Shown here one piece after another: positions 1 to 32,420 of a stretch of 37,259 bases of DNA; positions within the stretch are counted from its first letter, which is position 1, and the number at the start of each line of letters is the position of its first letter. Made by a program: the position numbers and the translations under genes. The stretch comes from a candidate division WOR-1 bacterium RIFOXYB2_FULL_37_13 (GTDB taxonomy: Bacteria; Margulisbacteria; WOR-1; XYC2-FULL-46-14; XYC2-FULL-37-10): contig MEUB01000030.1 of the NCBI GenBank assembly GCA_001771535.1, positions 1 through 37,259 on the forward strand, written 5' to 3'. Under the pieces are notes generated by a model. It worked only from the letters and a program-made list of their open reading frames with translations. It ran no database searches and had not been told where the DNA came from.

Positions 1-553
1 CAATACAACCTTTTATATTAAAGCTATTCTCAAAGAATTTAATTTCTTTATTTGAAATCGAAACAGCCCCCGTTCCAGACTGAAACCACAAAGAAAAGCC
101 GTTATTTTGCATGGCTGATGAAACAAATTTGAGGCCATTTCCTCTCTGTTCCGGGCTTCTGCCTGATATCACCTTAGTAAACGCAATCTCCAATGCCTCT
201 TTATCACTTTTAATTTCAGGAATAATTCTACTTAAAGACGCCCTAATCCCCTGCCCTCTATCTGCAAGAATTACAAGTTTCTCGGCACTCAATACTTCTA
301 ATAAAAGTCCCACAACATCAGTCCATGAACCTAAATTGTGATCAAAAGAGTTATTTCCTATTTCACCGATAACAGCTGTAAGTAAAGGATCTTTTGTTTC
401 AGCATAAAAATTATCCAGTTTAGCTTTAAAAACATCTCTTGTTTCACATTGATAAGACTTATCATAAACCAATACCTTCTCTTGCTGTATCCATTTTAAA
501 ATACTATCAACTTCTTCATTTTTCAATTCATGGATATCCATTGTAGATTTCAT
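1..553 (-). CDS. GHKL (histidine kinase-like) ATPase, C-terminus cut by window edge
   Basis: The reading frame is open from an ATG at 553 to the window edge (184 codons, no stop), so the C-terminus is missing. The start has a good Shine-Dalgarno sequence (GGAG, about 565-568). A HATPase_c fold is suggested by an N-box (GEIGNNSFDHN, about residues 63-73), a G1/D-box (ADRGQGI, 97-103) and a G2-like RGNGLKF (137-143). No transmembrane segment or dimerisation/phosphoacceptor helix is seen, so it resembles a soluble anti-sigma or stand-alone ATPase more than a sensor kinase. Such ATPases are often paired with a STAS-like partner, but the downstream gene lies outside the window. It diverges from the orphan gene at 694, with the palindromic element at 581 between them. 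The ATPase call is fairly secure; substrate and role are unknown. Confidence 0.72.
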   Translation of the reverse strand, partial: MKSTMDIHELKNEEVDSILKWIQQEKVLVYDKSYQCETRDVFKAKLDNFYAETKDPLLTAVIGEIGNNSFDHNLGSWTDVVGLLLEVLSAEKLVILADRGQGIRASLSRIIPEIKSDKEALEIAFTKVISGRSPEQRGNGLKFVSSAMQNNGFSLWFQSGTGAVSISNKEIKFFENSFNIKGCI

Positions 554-580: not shown

Positions 581-618
581 TGAAATTTCAAAAAAAAAAA
601 AACGATAACAGTATATAT
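581..618 (+). promoter_or_regulatory. Palindrome + A-tract control element, copy 1
   Basis: A perfect 10-bp palindrome (TGAAATTTCA, 581-590) runs into a 13-base A-tract and then CGATAACAGTATATAT (603-618). The same three-part layout recurs at 2803-2835 upstream of a different orphan gene. A TTTCA half-site at about 570 also faces the palindrome. It lies between divergent genes and could be an operator plus UP-element/promoter for the gene at 694. The similarity is seen directly; the regulatory role is inferred. Confidence 0.55.
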
Positions 619-693
619 AAAAATAGCATTGGTAAAACACTTAAATCATTGAGCAATAAGTTTAATTCAACATATTTAAAGGTGGAATAAAAA

Positions 694-1224
694 ATGAATG
701 TATCGATAAAAAATGTTGCAAGAATTGCGGTTCCTTTTATTGCATGCGGAGCACTATTGAGGGAAGGTATGTGCCCCCCAAAACCACACATATATGAAAC
801 ACCATATTCTAGTTCAGCAACAAACTCATCGACAACAATAACTATTAACCTTAAGCCCTTTGACTACTCCTATAATGTTCAAGATGATCGTGTTAAAAAA
901 AAATACCGTGGAGAATATAGGGTGTCTTTAGATGCGCAAGATATTTTAAAAACAACAATTCCAAATGGAACAACCCATGCGTTTGATTTAAAAACCAAAG
1001 AGCTTTATATTAATGGGAAAACCATTACTAAGGATTCAAGAGAATATTTAGAAGAAACAGTAAAAATGTTAGGCGGTTATGTAAGATTCCCTTATTGTTT
1101 TGATCCTAATTTTAATATCACAAAACCAAAATACAGCTGGGGACCAGAACTCGATAACTTTATATCACCAATACAAGAGGAAGCTCGCCAAAAACTTATT
1201 GATTTAAACTTCACTAAAGGCTAG
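694..1224 (+). CDS. Orphan protein of unknown function, 176 aa
   Basis: Not recognised. The ATG at 694 has a ribosome binding site (AGGTGG, about 681-686). The N-terminus is mildly hydrophobic with a cysteine at residue 18 (VPFIACGA). That could be a poor lipobox, but the hydrophobic run is too short for a confident signal peptide. The rest is hydrophilic, rich in Lys, Tyr, Asn and Thr, with no motif I can name. It lies between the divergent ATPase gene and the left copy of the glyS-derived repeat (1241-1291), and shares its upstream element with the unrelated gene at 2886. Upstream element, RBS and orderly codon use support a real gene. Confidence 0.6.
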   Translation: MNVSIKNVARIAVPFIACGALLREGMCPPKPHIYETPYSSSATNSSTTITINLKPFDYSYNVQDDRVKKKYRGEYRVSLDAQDILKTTIPNGTTHAFDLKTKELYINGKTITKDSREYLEETVKMLGGYVRFPYCFDPNFNITKPKYSWGPELDNFISPIQEEARQKLIDLNFTKG

Positions 1225-1240
1225 AAATCTTTTAACACAT

Positions 1241-1291
1241 TTCTCACAATACAATCTTCCCAAACTCCGCCGCTTTGAGAAAGAGGTTATT
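1241..1291 (-). repeat. Left copy of glyS 3'-end direct repeat
   Basis: Bases 1256-1291 are identical over 36 bp to 3742-3777, the 3' end of glyS. The match extends to 51 bp (1241-1291 against 3727-3777) with four mismatches. Read on the minus strand it still encodes the last 15 GlyS residues in frame ([12 protein letters not shown] then IVL instead of VVV), followed by the same TGA stop. It is therefore a detached copy of the glyS tail. Three mismatches fall in the last three sense codons and one just past the stop. It also supplies the TAA stop (1287-1289) of the neighbouring ATPase gene. Confidence 0.9.
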
Positions 1292-2726
1292 TTTCTATTA
1301 ATGTCTCTGTCAAAAGCCTGCTCTGCAATTCAAAGGCTTGTCTGGAATTTTTAGGATTATTCAAAAGAGATATTTCTTGAGTTAATAAACGAGCCACATT
1401 TACAAGTTGACGATCCCTATGTTTTGATTCCCTCTTATATAAAGGATGGTCAATGTTAATATATATTATAGAACCTTCCGTATAACTCTCGGGAACATCT
1501 TCGCCAAAATGGTCAAATTGGCAGGTAAACCCATCATTCCCCATTTTAAATTTGGTGACAACCGCCGATGGACCTAAAACTTTTGAAAGTATTTTCTTCT
1601 GCGCGAGGGTCTTCTTTTTATTGGCCATGGGTCTCTTAGGTAAGTTTCTTTCCCTCTCTTTTAACTTTGGTTTTTCATTTTCATCGGGAATGGACATACC
1701 CAAAAGTTCCGCAAGATTTGGATTTTTTCGCAAAGCTTCTTTAACCCTTTCCACGGCGGCATTTGCTATATTTCTAACTCTTTTCTTTTCTTTTTGATTT
1801 TGTAAATATTTAATATCATGAGCAATCCGTTGCAAAACCTGCCTCATCGTATTATAAAAACCTTTATATTCCGAGCTGTCCAAAACAAAATTTGTACGGT
1901 CGGAAGTTACTGTAAGAAAATCAGCATGAACTTCGCCCGTCAAAGAAGAAAAGTTGGGGACCATTTCCATACCAAAAAGCTCTTTTTTAACGGTAACACC
2001 TTTTACTTTAACTTCTATTCCAGCTCCGCCAAAAATCAATTTGGGATTGGAGACAATGATAATTTCACCGCTTACAGAGCCAAAATCTGTTCCCTCAAAA
2101 ATGGGGATGCGATGCCCAGGTAAAAATCTCGCGACAATTCTTTTGCCGTTTAAATAGACCGCGAAATTTTCCGCTTTAATCGGGACCCCTTCCAAAATCC
2201 TCCTTTCAACATCTGAAATGTCAAATTTTTTAGAGAGCTTTGTTAAAACAACTTTTGTCCCGTTATGTTTCCAAGCATTTGGATCATCTATGCGCAAAGG
2301 AATATGCCATTGGTCACGGCTTGCCTCCCAAGATTCTTTATCAAATATAACAGTAGCGGCAAAATCATCCCTTCTCGTTGAAATCTCAAAATGCGCGGCG
2401 GCCGCAAGGGAAGCAAATTTACCTATGCCAAACTCTCCTATCCTGATCCTGTTGAATTTTGGAGATTTGCTGTGTTTTTTCTTTTCCGTGGAGCCGATAT
2501 TAAAGTATTGGCTTAATCCTTCTCTATTCATTCCCGACCCATCATCTTCGATCACTATCTTATCATCTGCCATACTGACTTTGACAACTGACGCATCGGC
2601 ATCATAAGCATTATTTACAAGCTCGCGAATAAGTTCGATGCTCTCGGCATAAAGTCTTTCGCCAATAGTAATAAGATGGCTTTTGTCAAAAGTAATTGTT
2701 ATTGAAGGTTCTAATTCAACATCCAT
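1287..2726 (-). CDS. Soluble GHKL/HSP90-like ATPase, 479 aa
   Basis: The N-terminal ~200 residues form a GHKL ATP-binding domain: N-box ELVNNAYDADAS (35-46), G1 EDDGSGM (60-66), and G2-like IGEFGIGKFAS (96-106). A middle region follows that resembles the second domain of HSP90/MutL/MORC-type ATPases. A basic segment lies around 330-375 and a compact C-terminal domain contains IIYINIDHPLY (about 427-437). No membrane segment or DNA-binding motif is evident. Proteins of this build occur sporadically in accessory and defence loci, but function cannot be read from sequence. A -10-like TATAAT (2741-2746) leaves only about 8 nt of leader and there is no obvious SD. The TAA stop is formed by the first bases of the glyS-derived repeat, so the gene abuts the junction exactly. 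Confidence 0.85.
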   Translation of the reverse strand: MDVELEPSITITFDKSHLITIGERLYAESIELIRELVNNAYDADASVVKVSMADDKIVIEDDGSGMNREGLSQYFNIGSTEKKKHSKSPKFNRIRIGEFGIGKFASLAAAAHFEISTRRDDFAATVIFDKESWEASRDQWHIPLRIDDPNAWKHNGTKVVLTKLSKKFDISDVERRILEGVPIKAENFAVYLNGKRIVARFLPGHRIPIFEGTDFGSVSGEIIIVSNPKLIFGGAGIEVKVKGVTVKKELFGMEMVPNFSSLTGEVHADFLTVTSDRTNFVLDSSEYKGFYNTMRQVLQRIAHDIKYLQNQKEKKRVRNIANAAVERVKEALRKNPNLAELLGMSIPDENEKPKLKERERNLPKRPMANKKKTLAQKKILSKVLGPSAVVTKFKMGNDGFTCQFDHFGEDVPESYTEGSIIYINIDHPLYKRESKHRDRQLVNVARLLTQEISLLNNPKNSRQAFELQSRLLTETLIEK

Positions 2727-2802
2727 GCGTTATCTTCTTTATTATATCACGGATATTCCAGGGAAAAGAGGTTGTCTCTTATCCTCTCTCCTTGAAATCA
2801 CC

Positions 2803-2836
2803 TGAAATTTCAAAAAAAAAACGATAATAATATATG
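2803..2836 (+). promoter_or_regulatory. Palindrome + A-tract control element, copy 2
   Basis: The palindrome TGAAATTTCA (2803-2812) is followed by ten As and CGATAATAATATAT (2822-2835). The last block matches copy 1 (603-616) at 12 of 14 positions, while the A-tract is three bases shorter. A further TTGAAATCA lies just upstream (about 2792-2800). It sits between the divergent ATPase gene and the orphan gene at 2886, the same position as copy 1 in its module. Promoter/operator function is inferred. Confidence 0.55.
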
Positions 2837-2885: not shown

Positions 2886-3686
2886 ATGATTTCAGCAATA
2901 AGATTACCTGTAATTGGCAAAATAATAAGAAGAGGAATTGCTTATGTCAATTTAAAAGCAATAGAAGCAGATTTTTTCAAAAAGACAGAAGGGACAAAGA
3001 ATGATGGTCGATTTACTTTCACCAGAACATTAGCAATTCCAGAAAAGGTTGGTATTTATACTTTACCAAAAGGATCAAAAATGGTTTTTAGAGATGTTAA
3101 AGATCTTTATTGGCCAAAAGTTGGAGGATTGCGTACTAGAGATTTTCATCTTGAAAAAGTTGTTCTGGGTGGATCTTCGACAATTTATACCGAAGATACT
3201 ACATATTATAAGGAATATGAGCAACAAGAAAGGATTAAGGATGGTAGTCTAGGAGCCTTAACTTTAGAAGAAGGGACAACAATGCTCTTTGCGCCATATG
3301 AAGAAAGAGGAAGCCTTTTTCCACCCCTTACTCAATTAAAAGGAATTAAGACTAACAACCCACTAACTATTGATCTATGTACTTATGATGCCGGACTTAT
3401 TGAGCTTATTATATATCCTGGATTTAATTTTAATGTTGCAGATGGAGTTTTATCAAGCGAAAAAACTCATAATATTTTTTGGAAAGAACTTTTTGGAGAT
3501 TATGGAGAGAAAGATCATTTTATACCATGTAAAGGTGGGACTAGAATAAAGAGAGTAAGTACCTACGATATGTTTCCAGGTCAACTTAAAGAACTTACTT
3601 TGGCTGAAGATTGGTATACTTTTAGCGCAGGGCAAACAATAATTTTAAATGGATTTAATATTGATAAAATTACATTAAAGCCTTAA
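2886..3686 (+). CDS. Orphan protein of unknown function, 266 aa
   Basis: Not recognised. The ATG at 2886 follows a GGGAG ribosome binding site (about 2873-2877). No signal peptide or membrane segment is convincing. The sequence alternates short hydrophobic and charged stretches typical of a beta-rich soluble protein, with recurring patterns such as LTLEEGTTMLFAPYEE, KELTLAEDWYTFSAGQT and EKVVLGGSSTIYTED. It shows no evident similarity to the 176-aa orphan at 694 apart from the shared upstream element. It is the second gene of the repeat-bracketed module and runs toward the glyS 3' end, stopping 43 bp before the glyS stop. It may be an effector or partner of the divergent ATPase, but that is only positional inference. 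Confidence 0.65.
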   Translation: MISAIRLPVIGKIIRRGIAYVNLKAIEADFFKKTEGTKNDGRFTFTRTLAIPEKVGIYTLPKGSKMVFRDVKDLYWPKVGGLRTRDFHLEKVVLGGSSTIYTEDTTYYKEYEQQERIKDGSLGALTLEEGTTMLFAPYEERGSLFPPLTQLKGIKTNNPLTIDLCTYDAGLIELIIYPGFNFNVADGVLSSEKTHNIFWKELFGDYGEKDHFIPCKGGTRIKRVSTYDMFPGQLKELTLAEDWYTFSAGQTIILNGFNIDKITLKP

Positions 3687-3726: not shown

Positions 3727-3777
3727 TTTTCACACAACAACCTTCCCAAACTCCGCCGCTTTGAGAAAGAGGTTATT
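3727..3777 (-). repeat. Right copy of direct repeat = native glyS 3' end
   Basis: This is the glyS-embedded member of the repeat pair. Bases 3742-3777 are identical to 1256-1291, and the last 15 bp carry four mismatches. It covers the final 15 glyS codons plus the stop. Inside is a short inverted CTTT-GAG-AAAG. This pattern is what integrases that use the 3' end of a protein gene leave behind (phage 21 and e14 in E. coli icd are known precedents), but no integrase gene is present here. Confidence 0.85.
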
Positions 3778-5796
3778 GATAGATTTTAATAGTGCCAAGC
3801 GATTGGCTTTTATTCTTTCATCCTGGTGCATCACCAGAACTTTTTCAAAAAACTTTTCAACGGGATTTGTAAGTTTTGAAAGTTCAAAAATAGCTATTTC
3901 ATATTTTTTAGCCTCAAGAGCCTCCCCTACCGCCACATTTGTTTTTAAATAAATATCGTAAAGTTGCTTCTCTTCCTCGTCCACCAAATCGTGTTCCATT
4001 ATTTCATCCCTCACAGCTATAGAAGATATCTTCGCCACCCTGTCGTGAGTTTGTACAAGCCCTGTAAAATAAGGCTCTTTTTTGAGTTTTTGCAAAACAT
4101 GCGCCATATCATAAACAAAAACGATATTCTCCAAATTAACAAAAGAAGCGGATACAACATCGTGACTTATCCCCTCCTCCTGCAAAATCCCCCGTAAACG
4201 AACCGCAATAAATTCGAGCATATTCTTATAGGTTTTTTCAAAGTTCCCATGCTGCAAAATAGAACCGTATAATTTAAAAGCATGTTCAAAAACTTGGTCA
4301 AGTAAAAGGTCTTTTTTATATGAGACAAGTATCTTGATAATCCCGTTTACCGCACGGCGCAATCCATACGGATCGGCAGACCCCGACGGGATTTTATCGA
4401 TCCCAAAACAACCAACAAGCGTATCAATTTTGTCCGCCAGAGAAACAACAATCCCTGCCTCCGTCTTGGGTAAATCATCCCCAAAAAATCGTGGGAGATA
4501 ATGTTCAAAAATCGCAACAGCATCCCCGCCAAGCTCTTTTTTGGCATATTGCCACCCCATATACCCCTGCAAATCAGGAAACTCAAAAACCATTTGTGTC
4601 ACAAGATCAGCCTTGCAAAGGAGCGCGATTTTACTTGTCAGAGATAAAACTTTTTCGCTTAATTTAAACTCTTTTCCTATGAAGTGAGAAAGCTTATGAA
4701 TCCGCTCCGTCTTTTGCCCCAAATTCCCCAACCCTTTAAAAAATTGGACATTGTTTAATTTTGGAACTCTTGAGCTAAGTTGTGTTTTGCTGTCTTCATC
4801 AAAGAAAAATTTGGCGTCAGAAAGTCGAGCCGAAATAACTCTCTGATTGCCATCCCTTATATTTTTTTGCTTACATCCGTTGGTAATGGCAACAAACTTC
4901 GCTGTCATCTTCCCATTGCCATCTAAAATAGGGAAATATTTCTGGTTCTTCTTCATGCTTGTTATCAAAACCTGATCAGGTAAAGATAAAAACTTCTCAT
5001 CAAAAGAGCAAACTATCGGATACGGATCTTCAACAAGATATGTAACTTCTTCTAAAAGATCTTTTTGGATAAGAGCTGTCGGAGCTATCTTTTTTATTTG
5101 ATCTTCTATTTTTTTCCATCTCTCATCCTGATCAACAATAACACCCGCTTTTTGGAGTTTTGATTTGTATGTTTTAACATCTGCATTGTCAATTGTTATT
5201 TGTTTTTTTACAAATCGATGCCCTTTTGTTTTGTTCGATGATTTAATCCCTGCAAGTTCGAATTTGATAATTTTGGATTCGAAAAGAGCCACAATCCAAT
5301 GTATCGGCCTTATAAATTTAAAGTCCTGCCTCCCCCACTTCATGCTTATCGGCATGTAAAGGGAAGAGATAATATCGGGCAATAAAGAGGCTAAAACTTT
5401 TTCAGCAGGCAATCCTTTTTGCTCAACCTTTGCAAAAAAATAATTATCCTTTACAAAAAGAGAATCCACGGAAACACCAAACTTTTTAGCAAACCCCTCC
5501 GCCGCCTTTGTTAACTTTCCGCCAGCATCATAAGCGATGTTTTGTGGAGGGCCTTTTATTTCCTCGCTTTTATCAGGTTGCTTATTGGGCAATCCCTCAA
5601 CAAAAAGAGTCAAACGCCTTGGTGTTCCGTAAGTAGAAATGGATTCGAATTGAAGATTATTGGAAAGAAGTTTTTCTTCGGCCTTCTTTTTTAAATCGAT
5701 AATCAAAGCCGGCATAAACCGGGCAGGAATTTCTTCACAACCGACTTCTAACAGTAAATTTGGTTTTGACGCCATGTTTTTAGTTTTTTTCTTCAT
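3730..5796 (-). CDS. glyS: Glycine--tRNA ligase beta subunit
   Basis: The beta subunit of bacterial alpha2beta2 glycyl-tRNA synthetase, responsible for tRNA(Gly) recognition during charging in the cytoplasm. 688 residues is the normal family length. The start [14 protein letters not shown] (about residues 14-27) is the family hallmark. The central B-domains and HD-like part ([25 protein letters not shown]) and the C-terminal DALR-like anticodon-binding region ([19 protein letters not shown]) follow in order. The start codon overlaps the glyQ stop by 4 bp (ATGA), so the two are translationally coupled. The last 15 codons are duplicated 2.49 kb downstream at 1241-1291, which makes the gene's 3' end a probable integration site. 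The protein itself looks intact. Confidence 0.97.
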
Positions 5797-30489: not shown

Positions 30490-31308
30490 TTAAACCTTCG
30501 TTCCCCAATGTACAAACAAAAGTGGAATTCTCTCTGACAAATCCTCACTGGCATAAACAGTAAATGATGAAGTAGTCTTTGTTTTTTTTGTTTCCCTAAG
30601 AAAAAATACAATACTCCTTGTCGCAGAAACAGTTGGGCGAGGATGTAACAAAGGTGCAAGTAGTATTCCATCATCTTCAAATAATTGCCCCAACATGCTC
30701 CTATGAGCCGACCCCTGTTCAGTAACTAACATCTCTTCACAAACAACTCCCTTTCGTTTTTGATTTTGTATTATTTTAGCCATTATCGACCAGTCACTTG
30801 CCCTTACTCTTCTTACTATTTCATCAATTCCTATTGAAATATCATTAAACTCTCTCACAGTATCAAGCCTTGCTTGCATAGCCTCTCCTGGTGAAACAAT
30901 AGAATGATATTCAGGGTTTCCCTTTCCTTTTACATCCTCCGCTTGACTCCCTCGCTCTACATCTCTCTCCCAAAAAACAAGATGCGAGCTACCATCAAGT
31001 CCTCTTTCTTTAACTCCCGCCCCTGACATAATCAATGCTGAACAAGCGTTTCCTCTATCTTCAATTTGCACATGAGAAAAAGATGGATTTTTATCTATCC
31101 CTTCTTTTGCAACAACTTCAGCAGATGCAATAAATCTCGCCGCACACTCTTGACATCCTTCTCTCCCCGTTTGTCCCAAAACATGAGCCGCAACTTTTCT
31201 TTGTGTATCTATGGAAAGGCCTCCCTTCTTTCTCAATGCTACAAACAATCCATCCATTTCATACATAGCTCTTCTTGCGGCAGTAACTGATGGACTAACA
31301 CTTGTCAT
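30490..31308 (-). CDS. Unknown protein, first member of a tandem paralogous pair (272 aa)
   Basis: Not recognised. Soluble, with no signal or membrane helix. It is clearly homologous along its length to the gene at 31415. Shared blocks: VAAHVLGQTGREGCQECAAR matches VAGHVLGHVGKGGWSETAGN in the partner; SHLVFWE against SHLVFWG; SIVSPGEAMQARLDTV against SVVSLEEAVNKRLSTI; ASDWSIM against MNDWAIV; HRSMLGQLF against YRPMLEHLF; and IPLL near the end. A CxxC-like GCQEC is present only in this copy. The ATG at 31308 has an AGGAG SD. Same orientation as, and 106 bp after, the paralogue; the pair may be co-transcribed. Confidence 0.75.
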   Translation of the reverse strand: MTSVSPSVTAARRAMYEMDGLFVALRKKGGLSIDTQRKVAAHVLGQTGREGCQECAARFIASAEVVAKEGIDKNPSFSHVQIEDRGNACSALIMSGAGVKERGLDGSSHLVFWERDVERGSQAEDVKGKGNPEYHSIVSPGEAMQARLDTVREFNDISIGIDEIVRRVRASDWSIMAKIIQNQKRKGVVCEEMLVTEQGSAHRSMLGQLFEDDGILLAPLLHPRPTVSATRSIVFFLRETKKTKTTSSFTVYASEDLSERIPLLFVHWGTKV

Positions 31309-31414: not shown

Positions 31415-32239
31415 TTACTGTATCTTCAATTTTAACAATGGTATTTCTCGGCATGCATTTAGTCCTTCTAAAAAAACTCTAAAAACTCCTTCAGTTCCTG
31501 AGTTTTTAATCAATCTAAACCTATAAGATAAGCCCTCCATATAAGGATAATATTCTGTTACTATTGGGGTACCTCGTGAGCCCGATAATAAGCGTAGGCC
31601 TAACAATAATTGGATTGGAATATTTTTAGTTTGCCTGTCTATTGAGAACAAGTGTTCTAACATGGGTCTGTAAGGCAATCCTTCACCTGTCATTTCCATA
31701 CTAATCAGCCGTCCCTCGCCAATCATCCCTTGAACAATAGCCCAATCGTTCATTCTGGTGGCCATTGTAAGTCGCTCGACTCCTCTTCTCGTTTTTTCTG
31801 AAAAATAAGCGTCATATATCGTACTTAATCTTTTATTTACAGCTTCTTCAAGAGAAACAACAGAAGAACGGCCGTCATTTCCGATTGCCACGGTTCCATT
31901 CCCTTTTCCCCAAAAAACAAGATGTGAGCAAAATTCAAGCTGTTGCGCCTTGGGACCTTCTCCTCGCATCTTCCAAGCTGTTACTCCATACTCATTCGTA
32001 TCAACTTCTATTTGAGTATCTTCCCCATTATTCACCAAAACTTCAGCTGACCTAACAAAATTCCCTGCAGTTTCACTCCAGCCGCCTTTCCCTACATGCC
32101 CCAAAACATGTCCAGCAACAAACCGTTTTTCTCTCATCGACAAAGTCTCTCCATAGCGTTTAAGTTTTGATTCTCTTCTCGCAAATAAGCCAACAACCTC
32201 AGACATAACTCTTCTTGGAAAACTATTTATAACAACCAT
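31415..32239 (-). CDS. Unknown protein, second member of the tandem pair (274 aa)
   Basis: Not recognised. The start is set at the ATG at 32239 because GGGGTGGAG just upstream is a strong SD; a TTG at 32257 would add six residues. It is homologous to the gene at 30490 but well diverged (clearly less than half identical by eye), so the duplication is old or the two arrived together. The most conserved parts, HVLGxxG near residue 45 and SHLVFWxK near 105, look structural, with no catalytic signature known to me. It sits in an accessory stretch between ddl and icd that also holds a toxin-antitoxin-like pair. Confidence 0.75.
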   Translation of the reverse strand: MVVINSFPRRVMSEVVGLFARRESKLKRYGETLSMREKRFVAGHVLGHVGKGGWSETAGNFVRSAEVLVNNGEDTQIEVDTNEYGVTAWKMRGEGPKAQQLEFCSHLVFWGKGNGTVAIGNDGRSSVVSLEEAVNKRLSTIYDAYFSEKTRRGVERLTMATRMNDWAIVQGMIGEGRLISMEMTGEGLPYRPMLEHLFSIDRQTKNIPIQLLLGLRLLSGSRGTPIVTEYYPYMEGLSYRFRLIKNSGTEGVFRVFLEGLNACREIPLLKLKIQ

Positions 32240-32420
32240 TCTCCACCCCTTTTTCAAGATCTAAGATTTACCAATCAACCGTTTCTTGGTATAATTTTAT
32301 TATCATCTTAATATTGTTTTAAAAATTTCAGATGATTTAGAGGGCACTGTTAGAGGCAATGTCAAATTAAAAATGATAAATGAAATGCTGAAAAATTTAA
32401 AGACTTTAAGTAAAAATCAA

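Follow-up and report, generated by a model that had tools for sequence, protein, structure and literature searches.

The two elements described here lie in a contig of 37,259 nucleotides (MEUB01000030.1, positions 1 to 37,259, of GenBank assembly GCA_001771535.1), which as a whole (contig C30) is the window of this analysis and belongs to the 1.79-Mb genome, labelled G000, of the candidate division WOR-1 bacterium RIFOXYB2_FULL_37_13. Each element consists of TGAAATTTCA, a perfect palindrome of 10 bp (581-590 and 2803-2812), a run of A and the box CGATAA; the runs comprise 13 A (590-602) and 10 A (2812-2821) when the last A of the palindrome is included, or 12 and 9 beyond the palindrome, and are followed by CGATAACAGTATAT in copy 1 and CGATAATAATATAT in copy 2. 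A preliminary description had reported this arrangement at both positions, ahead of divergent gene pairs, and it was confirmed in the sequence, as was the dissimilarity of the two right-hand genes (694-1224 and 2886-3686); the left genes face the opposite way. On the evidence below, the elements are probably FliA/sigma-28-type promoters with slippage spacers, driving the orphan genes of a flagellar secretion system that has neither filament nor motor. The features of the locus are as follows.

2-541, minus strand: left gene of unit 1, resembling an ATPase on visual inspection and running past the contig edge; an 86% identical homologue lies beside the same promoter in genome G001
581-589, plus strand: -35 box TGAAATTTC of promoter 1, from the sequence and the alignment of copies
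590-602, plus strand: poly-A spacer of 13 A; TGAAA-N17-CGATA, the canonical class spacing
603-608, plus strand: -10 box CGATAA of promoter 1, where the homology with the sister genus stops
694-1224, plus strand: orphan gene 1, 176 amino acids (aa), a putative sigma-28-controlled exported protein; ribosome-binding site AAAGGTGG near 678-684
1241-1291, no strand: scar of an inserted cassette, in which the 3' end of glyS is copied (92% over 51 bp)
1287-2726, minus strand: left gene of unit 2, a GHKL ATPase of 479 aa (HATPase_c_3, E-value 2.4e-19)
2803-2811, plus strand: -35 box TGAAATTTC of promoter 2
2812-2821, plus strand: poly-A spacer of 10 A; TGAAA-N14-CGATA, 3 nt below canonical
2822-2827, plus strand: -10 box CGATAA of promoter 2
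2886-3686, plus strand: orphan gene 2, 266 aa; ribosome-binding site GAGGGAG near 2872-2878
3727-3777, no strand: the original 3' end of glyS (3730-5796, minus strand), on the target side of the array of cassettes

The entire genome contains the strict pattern TGAAATTTCA-A(n)-CGATAA at four places, namely in the two window copies and at C11:35964 and C11:41194, whereas the reversed pattern does not occur at all, and thus the element is not a product of chance. A looser form was recognized at five sites in G000 and five in the nearest sister genus, G001, and at none in 55 other genomes of the phylum. Ten aligned copies showed no mismatch over TGAAATTTC and CGATA, only the length of the A-run varying, and nearly all of them are followed by a ribosome-binding site and then an open reading frame (ORF), mostly of unknown kind.

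A profile search built on the A-run sites revealed further divergent sites that lack the A-run and keep both boxes. The promoter class to which they belong has the form TGAAATT-N15-CGATAWA. Matches to the class pattern, TGAAATTN{12,16}CGATAWA, and A-runs were counted genome-wide in a set comprising 31 genomes of the window's class (Candidatus Saganbacteria/WOR-1, G000-G030) and 26 genomes of other classes in the phylum. About 881 class-pattern matches were found in the 31 class genomes, versus eight for the reversed pattern, and every one of these genomes contains them (6 to 152 per genome); the 26 genomes of other classes yielded about 113 matches versus 11 reversed. The figure of 152 is that of G007, which belongs to the same order and stands several-fold above most class members (next highest, 58); this excess possibly reflects a very large cargo set.

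The distance between the boxes was surveyed in 400-kb samples, chosen partly for containing sites. In these samples the count of TGAAA-Nx-CGATA peaks sharply at x = 17, with 31 sites in G005 and 17 in G000, most other spacings having one to five. The N17 sites lie just 5' of a gene on the same strand in 24 of 31 cases (G005) and 13 of 17 (G000), whereas control patterns gave 0-2. The 31 sites of G005 have the consensus TGAAATTT...ACGATATATATATAG, and the boxes of the class are a -35 of TGAAATTT(C) and a -10 of CGATAA or CGATATA, with TGAAA-N17-CGATA as the optimum. Because of the sharp peak, the position 5' of genes and the common -35/-10 consensus, the element is a promoter class and not a palindromic operator. 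The search of the genome and its relatives that had been suggested thus found sites which are not random but enriched throughout the class and placed just 5' of ORFs. The earlier idea that a shared control element unites the cassettes in a regulon holds in essence; what does not hold is the operator, since the element is an alternative-sigma promoter in which the -35/-10 pair and its spacing are conserved.

An operator for a repressor or activator common to the cassettes might be expected from TGAAATTTCA, which is a perfect palindrome and identical across the A-tract sites. However, the palindrome is missing from all of the class sites in relatives (0/41 in G005 and 0/20 in G002, or 0/61), while the -35, the -10 and their spacing persist there, and we give this explanation almost no weight. 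The palindrome instead appears to be incidental: it exists because the spacer starts with A after TGAAATTTC, its final A belonging to the A-run. An intrinsic terminator was ruled out by inspection, since the palindrome is AT-rich, 10 bp long and without a loop.

As for the sigma factor that recognizes this promoter class, the -10 box CGATAA/CGATAT is that of sigma-28 (FliA) promoters, and the spacing to it is fixed, as seen in the N17 peak. The -35 box, TGAAATTT, is related but not identical to the textbook TAAA or to TAAAGTTT, the -35 sequence of enteric sigma-28 promoters. CGATwt is the published -10 box of sigma-28 promoters in Campylobacter (PMC4626219).

A sigma factor of about 240-260 aa is encoded in 30 of the 31 class genomes, by our own reading of the match list. 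The best curated family of this sigma (contig C48 in G000) is FliA_WhiG, at 143 bits compared with 82 for SigBFG (SigB/F/G), a score that lies below the cut-off of 189.6 bits for FliA in NCBIfam TIGR02479. In both G000 and G005 this FliA/WhiG-like sigma is encoded with flagellar genes, between a flgJ-like gene and flgB, within the basal-body cluster flgA-flgH-flgI-flgJ-[sigma]-flgB-flgC-fliE-fliF-fliG-fliH-fliI-fliJ (some of these genes were named by order and sequence, not all by family search). A second, shorter FliA-like sigma of 196 aa (L233:13620-14210, G000:C44) follows flhA, with a gene for an unknown protein of 74 aa between them, and so adjoins the fliO-P-Q-R-flhB-flhA cluster; FliA_WhiG is its best match too, at 86.6 bits, also below 189.6 bits, and the generic sigma-70/ECF family reaches 80.9 bits. 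As both sigmas fall below the curated cut-off, we call them FliA-type and not FliA. The shorter protein, with its place in the export-gate cluster and its best match to FliA_WhiG, might read the motif in place of the sigma of the rod/ring cluster. Its FliA match is, however, the weaker one and close to its generic sigma-70/ECF score, and it is the longer sigma that was found in nearly all of the class genomes, so this alternative seems unlikely. From the promoter boxes and the gene neighborhoods we infer that a FliA-type sigma, more plausibly the longer one, reads the motif. The rpoD gene has a class site upstream in G000, G001 and G005, a conserved footprint at a non-cassette gene (rpoD with its upstream sigma-28-type site in G000 and G005 is at L226:3853-4899 and L254:14374-15417), and this suggests that the main sigma is under feedback from the export-linked one.

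The A-runs are closely tied to this promoter class. Runs of at least 11 A occur seven times in the whole of G000 and six times in G001, and all 13 are inside the spacer of such a promoter; among the relatives, G005 has none and G002 has one, near a contig end. Across loci of the window's genus and the sister genus G001, the spacer poly-A contains 10-15 A, and its length sets the distance from TGAAA to CGATA, which ranges from 14 to 19 across 15 sites. The homologous promoter next to the left-hand ATPase gene has 13 A in the window's genome and 11 A in G001. Poly-G spacers also exist: a run of at least six G at four of 20 sites in G002, and nine G at one site in G011.

These runs bear on a further explanation, according to which the elements are ordinary vegetative sigma-70 divergent promoters and the A-tract is a bend or an UP-like element. 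At some sites, TTGAAA-N17-TATAAT-like promoters on the opposite strand do share the palindrome as their -35, and three of the 15 A-tract sites have zero or one mismatch to TATAAT on that strand; leuC also carries such a promoter. However, towards the orphan it is CGATA, not TATAAT, that is conserved as the -10, neither of the leftward promoters of the window is intact, and the A-tract is absent from the sites of relatives, being replaced by poly-G at some G002 sites; we therefore consider the vegetative explanation quite improbable. Since a homopolymer of either base is confined to the spacer of the sigma-28-type promoter, slippage control fits better than DNA bending. A spacer homopolymer that differs in length between copies, which is the mark of a phase-variable promoter, is thus present, and it is probably the signature of slippage. 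Slippage would then switch expression; promoter 1, with its optimal spacing, is predicted to be on in the sequenced population, and promoter 2, which is 3 nt short, to be weak or off.

Phase-variable promoters with simple repeats between the -35 and the -10 are known in Neisseria, Haemophilus and Bordetella, and the elements resemble them in that the distance between the boxes depends on a homopolymer or short repeat lying there. The present situation is different in that poly-A lies in a sigma-28-type promoter, at many loci of one genome, and its switching is predicted from sequence. Literature searches on promoter-spacer phase variation gave no match.

The flagellar gene set in which the sigmas are encoded is incomplete. 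The export-gate protein FlhA was found in 30 of the 31 class genomes; FlhB, FliP and FliO were identified by Pfam, and FliQ and FliR by operon position only, so that the export gate of a flagellar-type type III secretion system (T3SS; FlhA, FlhB, FliP, FliQ, FliR) is present. The C-terminal motor domain of FliG (PF01706, FliG_C) was found in none of the 31 class genomes, whereas 18 of the 26 genomes of other classes have it, and the three genomes that were inspected encode a shortened FliG of 159-184 aa. Flagellin (PF00669) was not found in any of six class genomes tested, although control genomes matched. Rod and short hook-like proteins, FliM, FliN, a FliK-like protein and the P/L-ring proteins are kept. 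With flagellin and FliG_C absent and the export gate, rod and rings retained, this is a flagellar machine without filament or motor domain; Saganbacteria are apparently non-swimming, and the gene set probably works as a secretion system.

A similar reduction is known in Buchnera aphidicola, whose basal bodies have no filament and which has kept the export gate, rod and P/L rings and lost flagellin and the motor genes (PMC8109811). In contrast to Buchnera, the reduction here extends across the sampled Saganbacteria and is accompanied by a FliA-type sigma with a large regulon, and FliG itself is without its motor domain. The non-flagellar T3SSs described by Abby and Rocha in 2012, which derive from flagella and include an early Myxococcales group without FlgBCDEK, FliEG and FlgH (PMC3459982), are likewise flagellar machinery turned to protein delivery; injectisomes, however, use a secretin, whereas Saganbacteria keep the flagellar rod and the FlgH/FlgI rings. 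Flagellated sister genomes, including G037, G042 and G045, gave two or more FlhA matches each, and may possess both a true flagellum and a second, Saganbacteria-like export system. Two large orphan proteins of 1515 and 808 aa are encoded near export-gate and basal-body clusters (L233:8530-13077 and L202:12026-14452) and are possible large cargo.

In the 400-kb samples, 50 ORFs follow a site, and 46 of them were scanned against Pfam. The 25 families listed cover about 15 of the 46 (TPR, protein kinase, PP2C, GH8, hydrolases, two rpoD and others), and many of the others had no match. At residues 2-25 the regulon proteins have an S+T+P+N fraction of 0.267, compared with 0.198 in 609 other proteins (p <= 0.0002), and no such difference was found at residues 60-150. 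A richness in S, T, P and N limited to the N-terminus is like that of type III substrates and makes export plausible; the orphans are probably exported as cargo of the flagellar secretion system. In Campylobacter jejuni, sigma-28-dependent proteins that do not serve motility (Feds, Cia and others) are partly exported via the flagellar T3SS (PMC4626219, PMC9856085). The two systems share the CGAT -10 box and a regulon that includes proteins unneeded for motility, some of them exported by the flagellar T3SS in C. jejuni; the present system differs in its -35, TGAAATTT, in the many orphans among the regulon members, and in that neither flagellin nor a motor domain was found. Searches with the two orphans of the window (694-1224 and 2886-3686) gave no accepted match in Pfam and no sequence match in PDB, and AlphaFold models made without alignment were uninformative (pLDDT 29 and 38). 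Farther along the window, two tandem orphan paralogues, 32% identical (30490-31308 and 31415-32257), have short basic N-termini like those of the regulon proteins, with no clear promoter match upstream.

The units of promoter and orphan are exchangeable cassettes. Positions 1-608 of the window align to G001 at 86%, the match stops at the -10 box CGATAA and the orphan beyond is different, which supports the preliminary statement that a changed cargo stands behind a retained control region. A remnant of the 3' end of orphan 2 persists in the glyS array of G001, which has three promoter-orphan units and its own decayed copy of the glyS end (83% over 41 bp). Elsewhere, the pabB 3' end is copied beside such units (88% over 140 bp and 95% over 41 bp), as is the upstream region of leuC beside another (93% over 45 bp). 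The simplest history would be stepwise insertion next to glyS, one copy of the gene end being left per event. The left genes of the units differ from site to site: GHKL ATPase and MNT/HepT-like and AbiEii-like nucleotidyltransferases were recognized, and that of unit 1 had no Pfam match. A defence or toxin-antitoxin cassette was rejected as the whole story, because the left genes vary and the promoter faces the orphan.

Since the sequences of the two genera cease to be homologous at the -10 box and the cassettes are clearly exchangeable, the element could be a recombination or attachment site that moves them, and a role in mobility had been suggested at the outset. The evidence does not support this: the same promoter class precedes non-cassette genes such as rpoD throughout the genome, the scars are copies of the ends of neighboring genes (glyS, pabB or leuC) with varied lengths (41-140 bp) and not of the motif, and no recombinase was seen in the cassettes, so that a recombination site is very improbable. 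Scars of such different length, in cassettes where no recombinase was seen, would tentatively favor homologous or Campbell-type insertion over a fixed attachment site.

In the mechanism that we consider probable, a FliA/sigma-28-type sigma would read each element and drive the orphan to its right. In the window's lineage the spacer would often have turned into poly-A (10-15 A), whose length slippage alters, moving the spacing between 14 and 19, and phase variation would thereby probably switch or tune the gene. This sigma would belong to a flagellar gene set, probably a secretion system, with the orphans probably among its cargo, and the promoter-orphan units would be cassettes open to exchange that were inserted beside glyS and beside other genes. 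Several points weigh against this. The -35 box differs from the enteric TAAAGTTT; the longer sigma scores below the curated FliA cut-off; with two FliA-like sigmas present, either could read the motif; slippage is deduced from length differences between loci and genera, not within one population; the regulon includes rpoD and ordinary enzymes, and thus not all of it is cargo; and gene starts were set by a simple ORF rule.

A wider proposal, which we make tentatively and hold to be somewhat short of even, is that the flagellum of the Saganbacteria class has turned into a motor-less, filament-less type III machine whose fast-changing exported orphans are controlled by sigma-28, and that in one lineage the cargo genes stand under independent poly-A slippage switches (sometimes poly-G in a sister genus) and the cargo is swapped as cassettes at the ends of housekeeping genes. 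TGAAATT-N15-CGATAWA would then be a handle with which to list, for each genome of this uncultured phylum, the probable cargo of a secretion system that derives from the flagellum and is apparently undescribed; no paper on this turned up in the literature searched. Studies of how a flagellum turns into a secretion machine would gain a further example, and the promoters also point to a contingency mechanism in which a homopolymer lies inside an alternative-sigma promoter at many loci of one genome.

Other cassettes and promoters show further arrangements. At L007:12688-16125, an orphan and an MNT/HepT-like pair split leuC from leuD, and leuD is now preceded by a duplicate of the promoter region of leuC. 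In the sister genus, an SMI1/KNR4 (SUKH) plus TPR protein is inserted with a copy of the pabB 3' end on either side (L021:1306-2880). Sigma-28-type promoters at L007:7800-7991, L068:2885-2990 and L116 are followed within about 100 nt by a terminator-like sequence of the type GAGCCC...GGGCTC, with no long ORF, and perhaps represent small RNAs or emptied cassettes.
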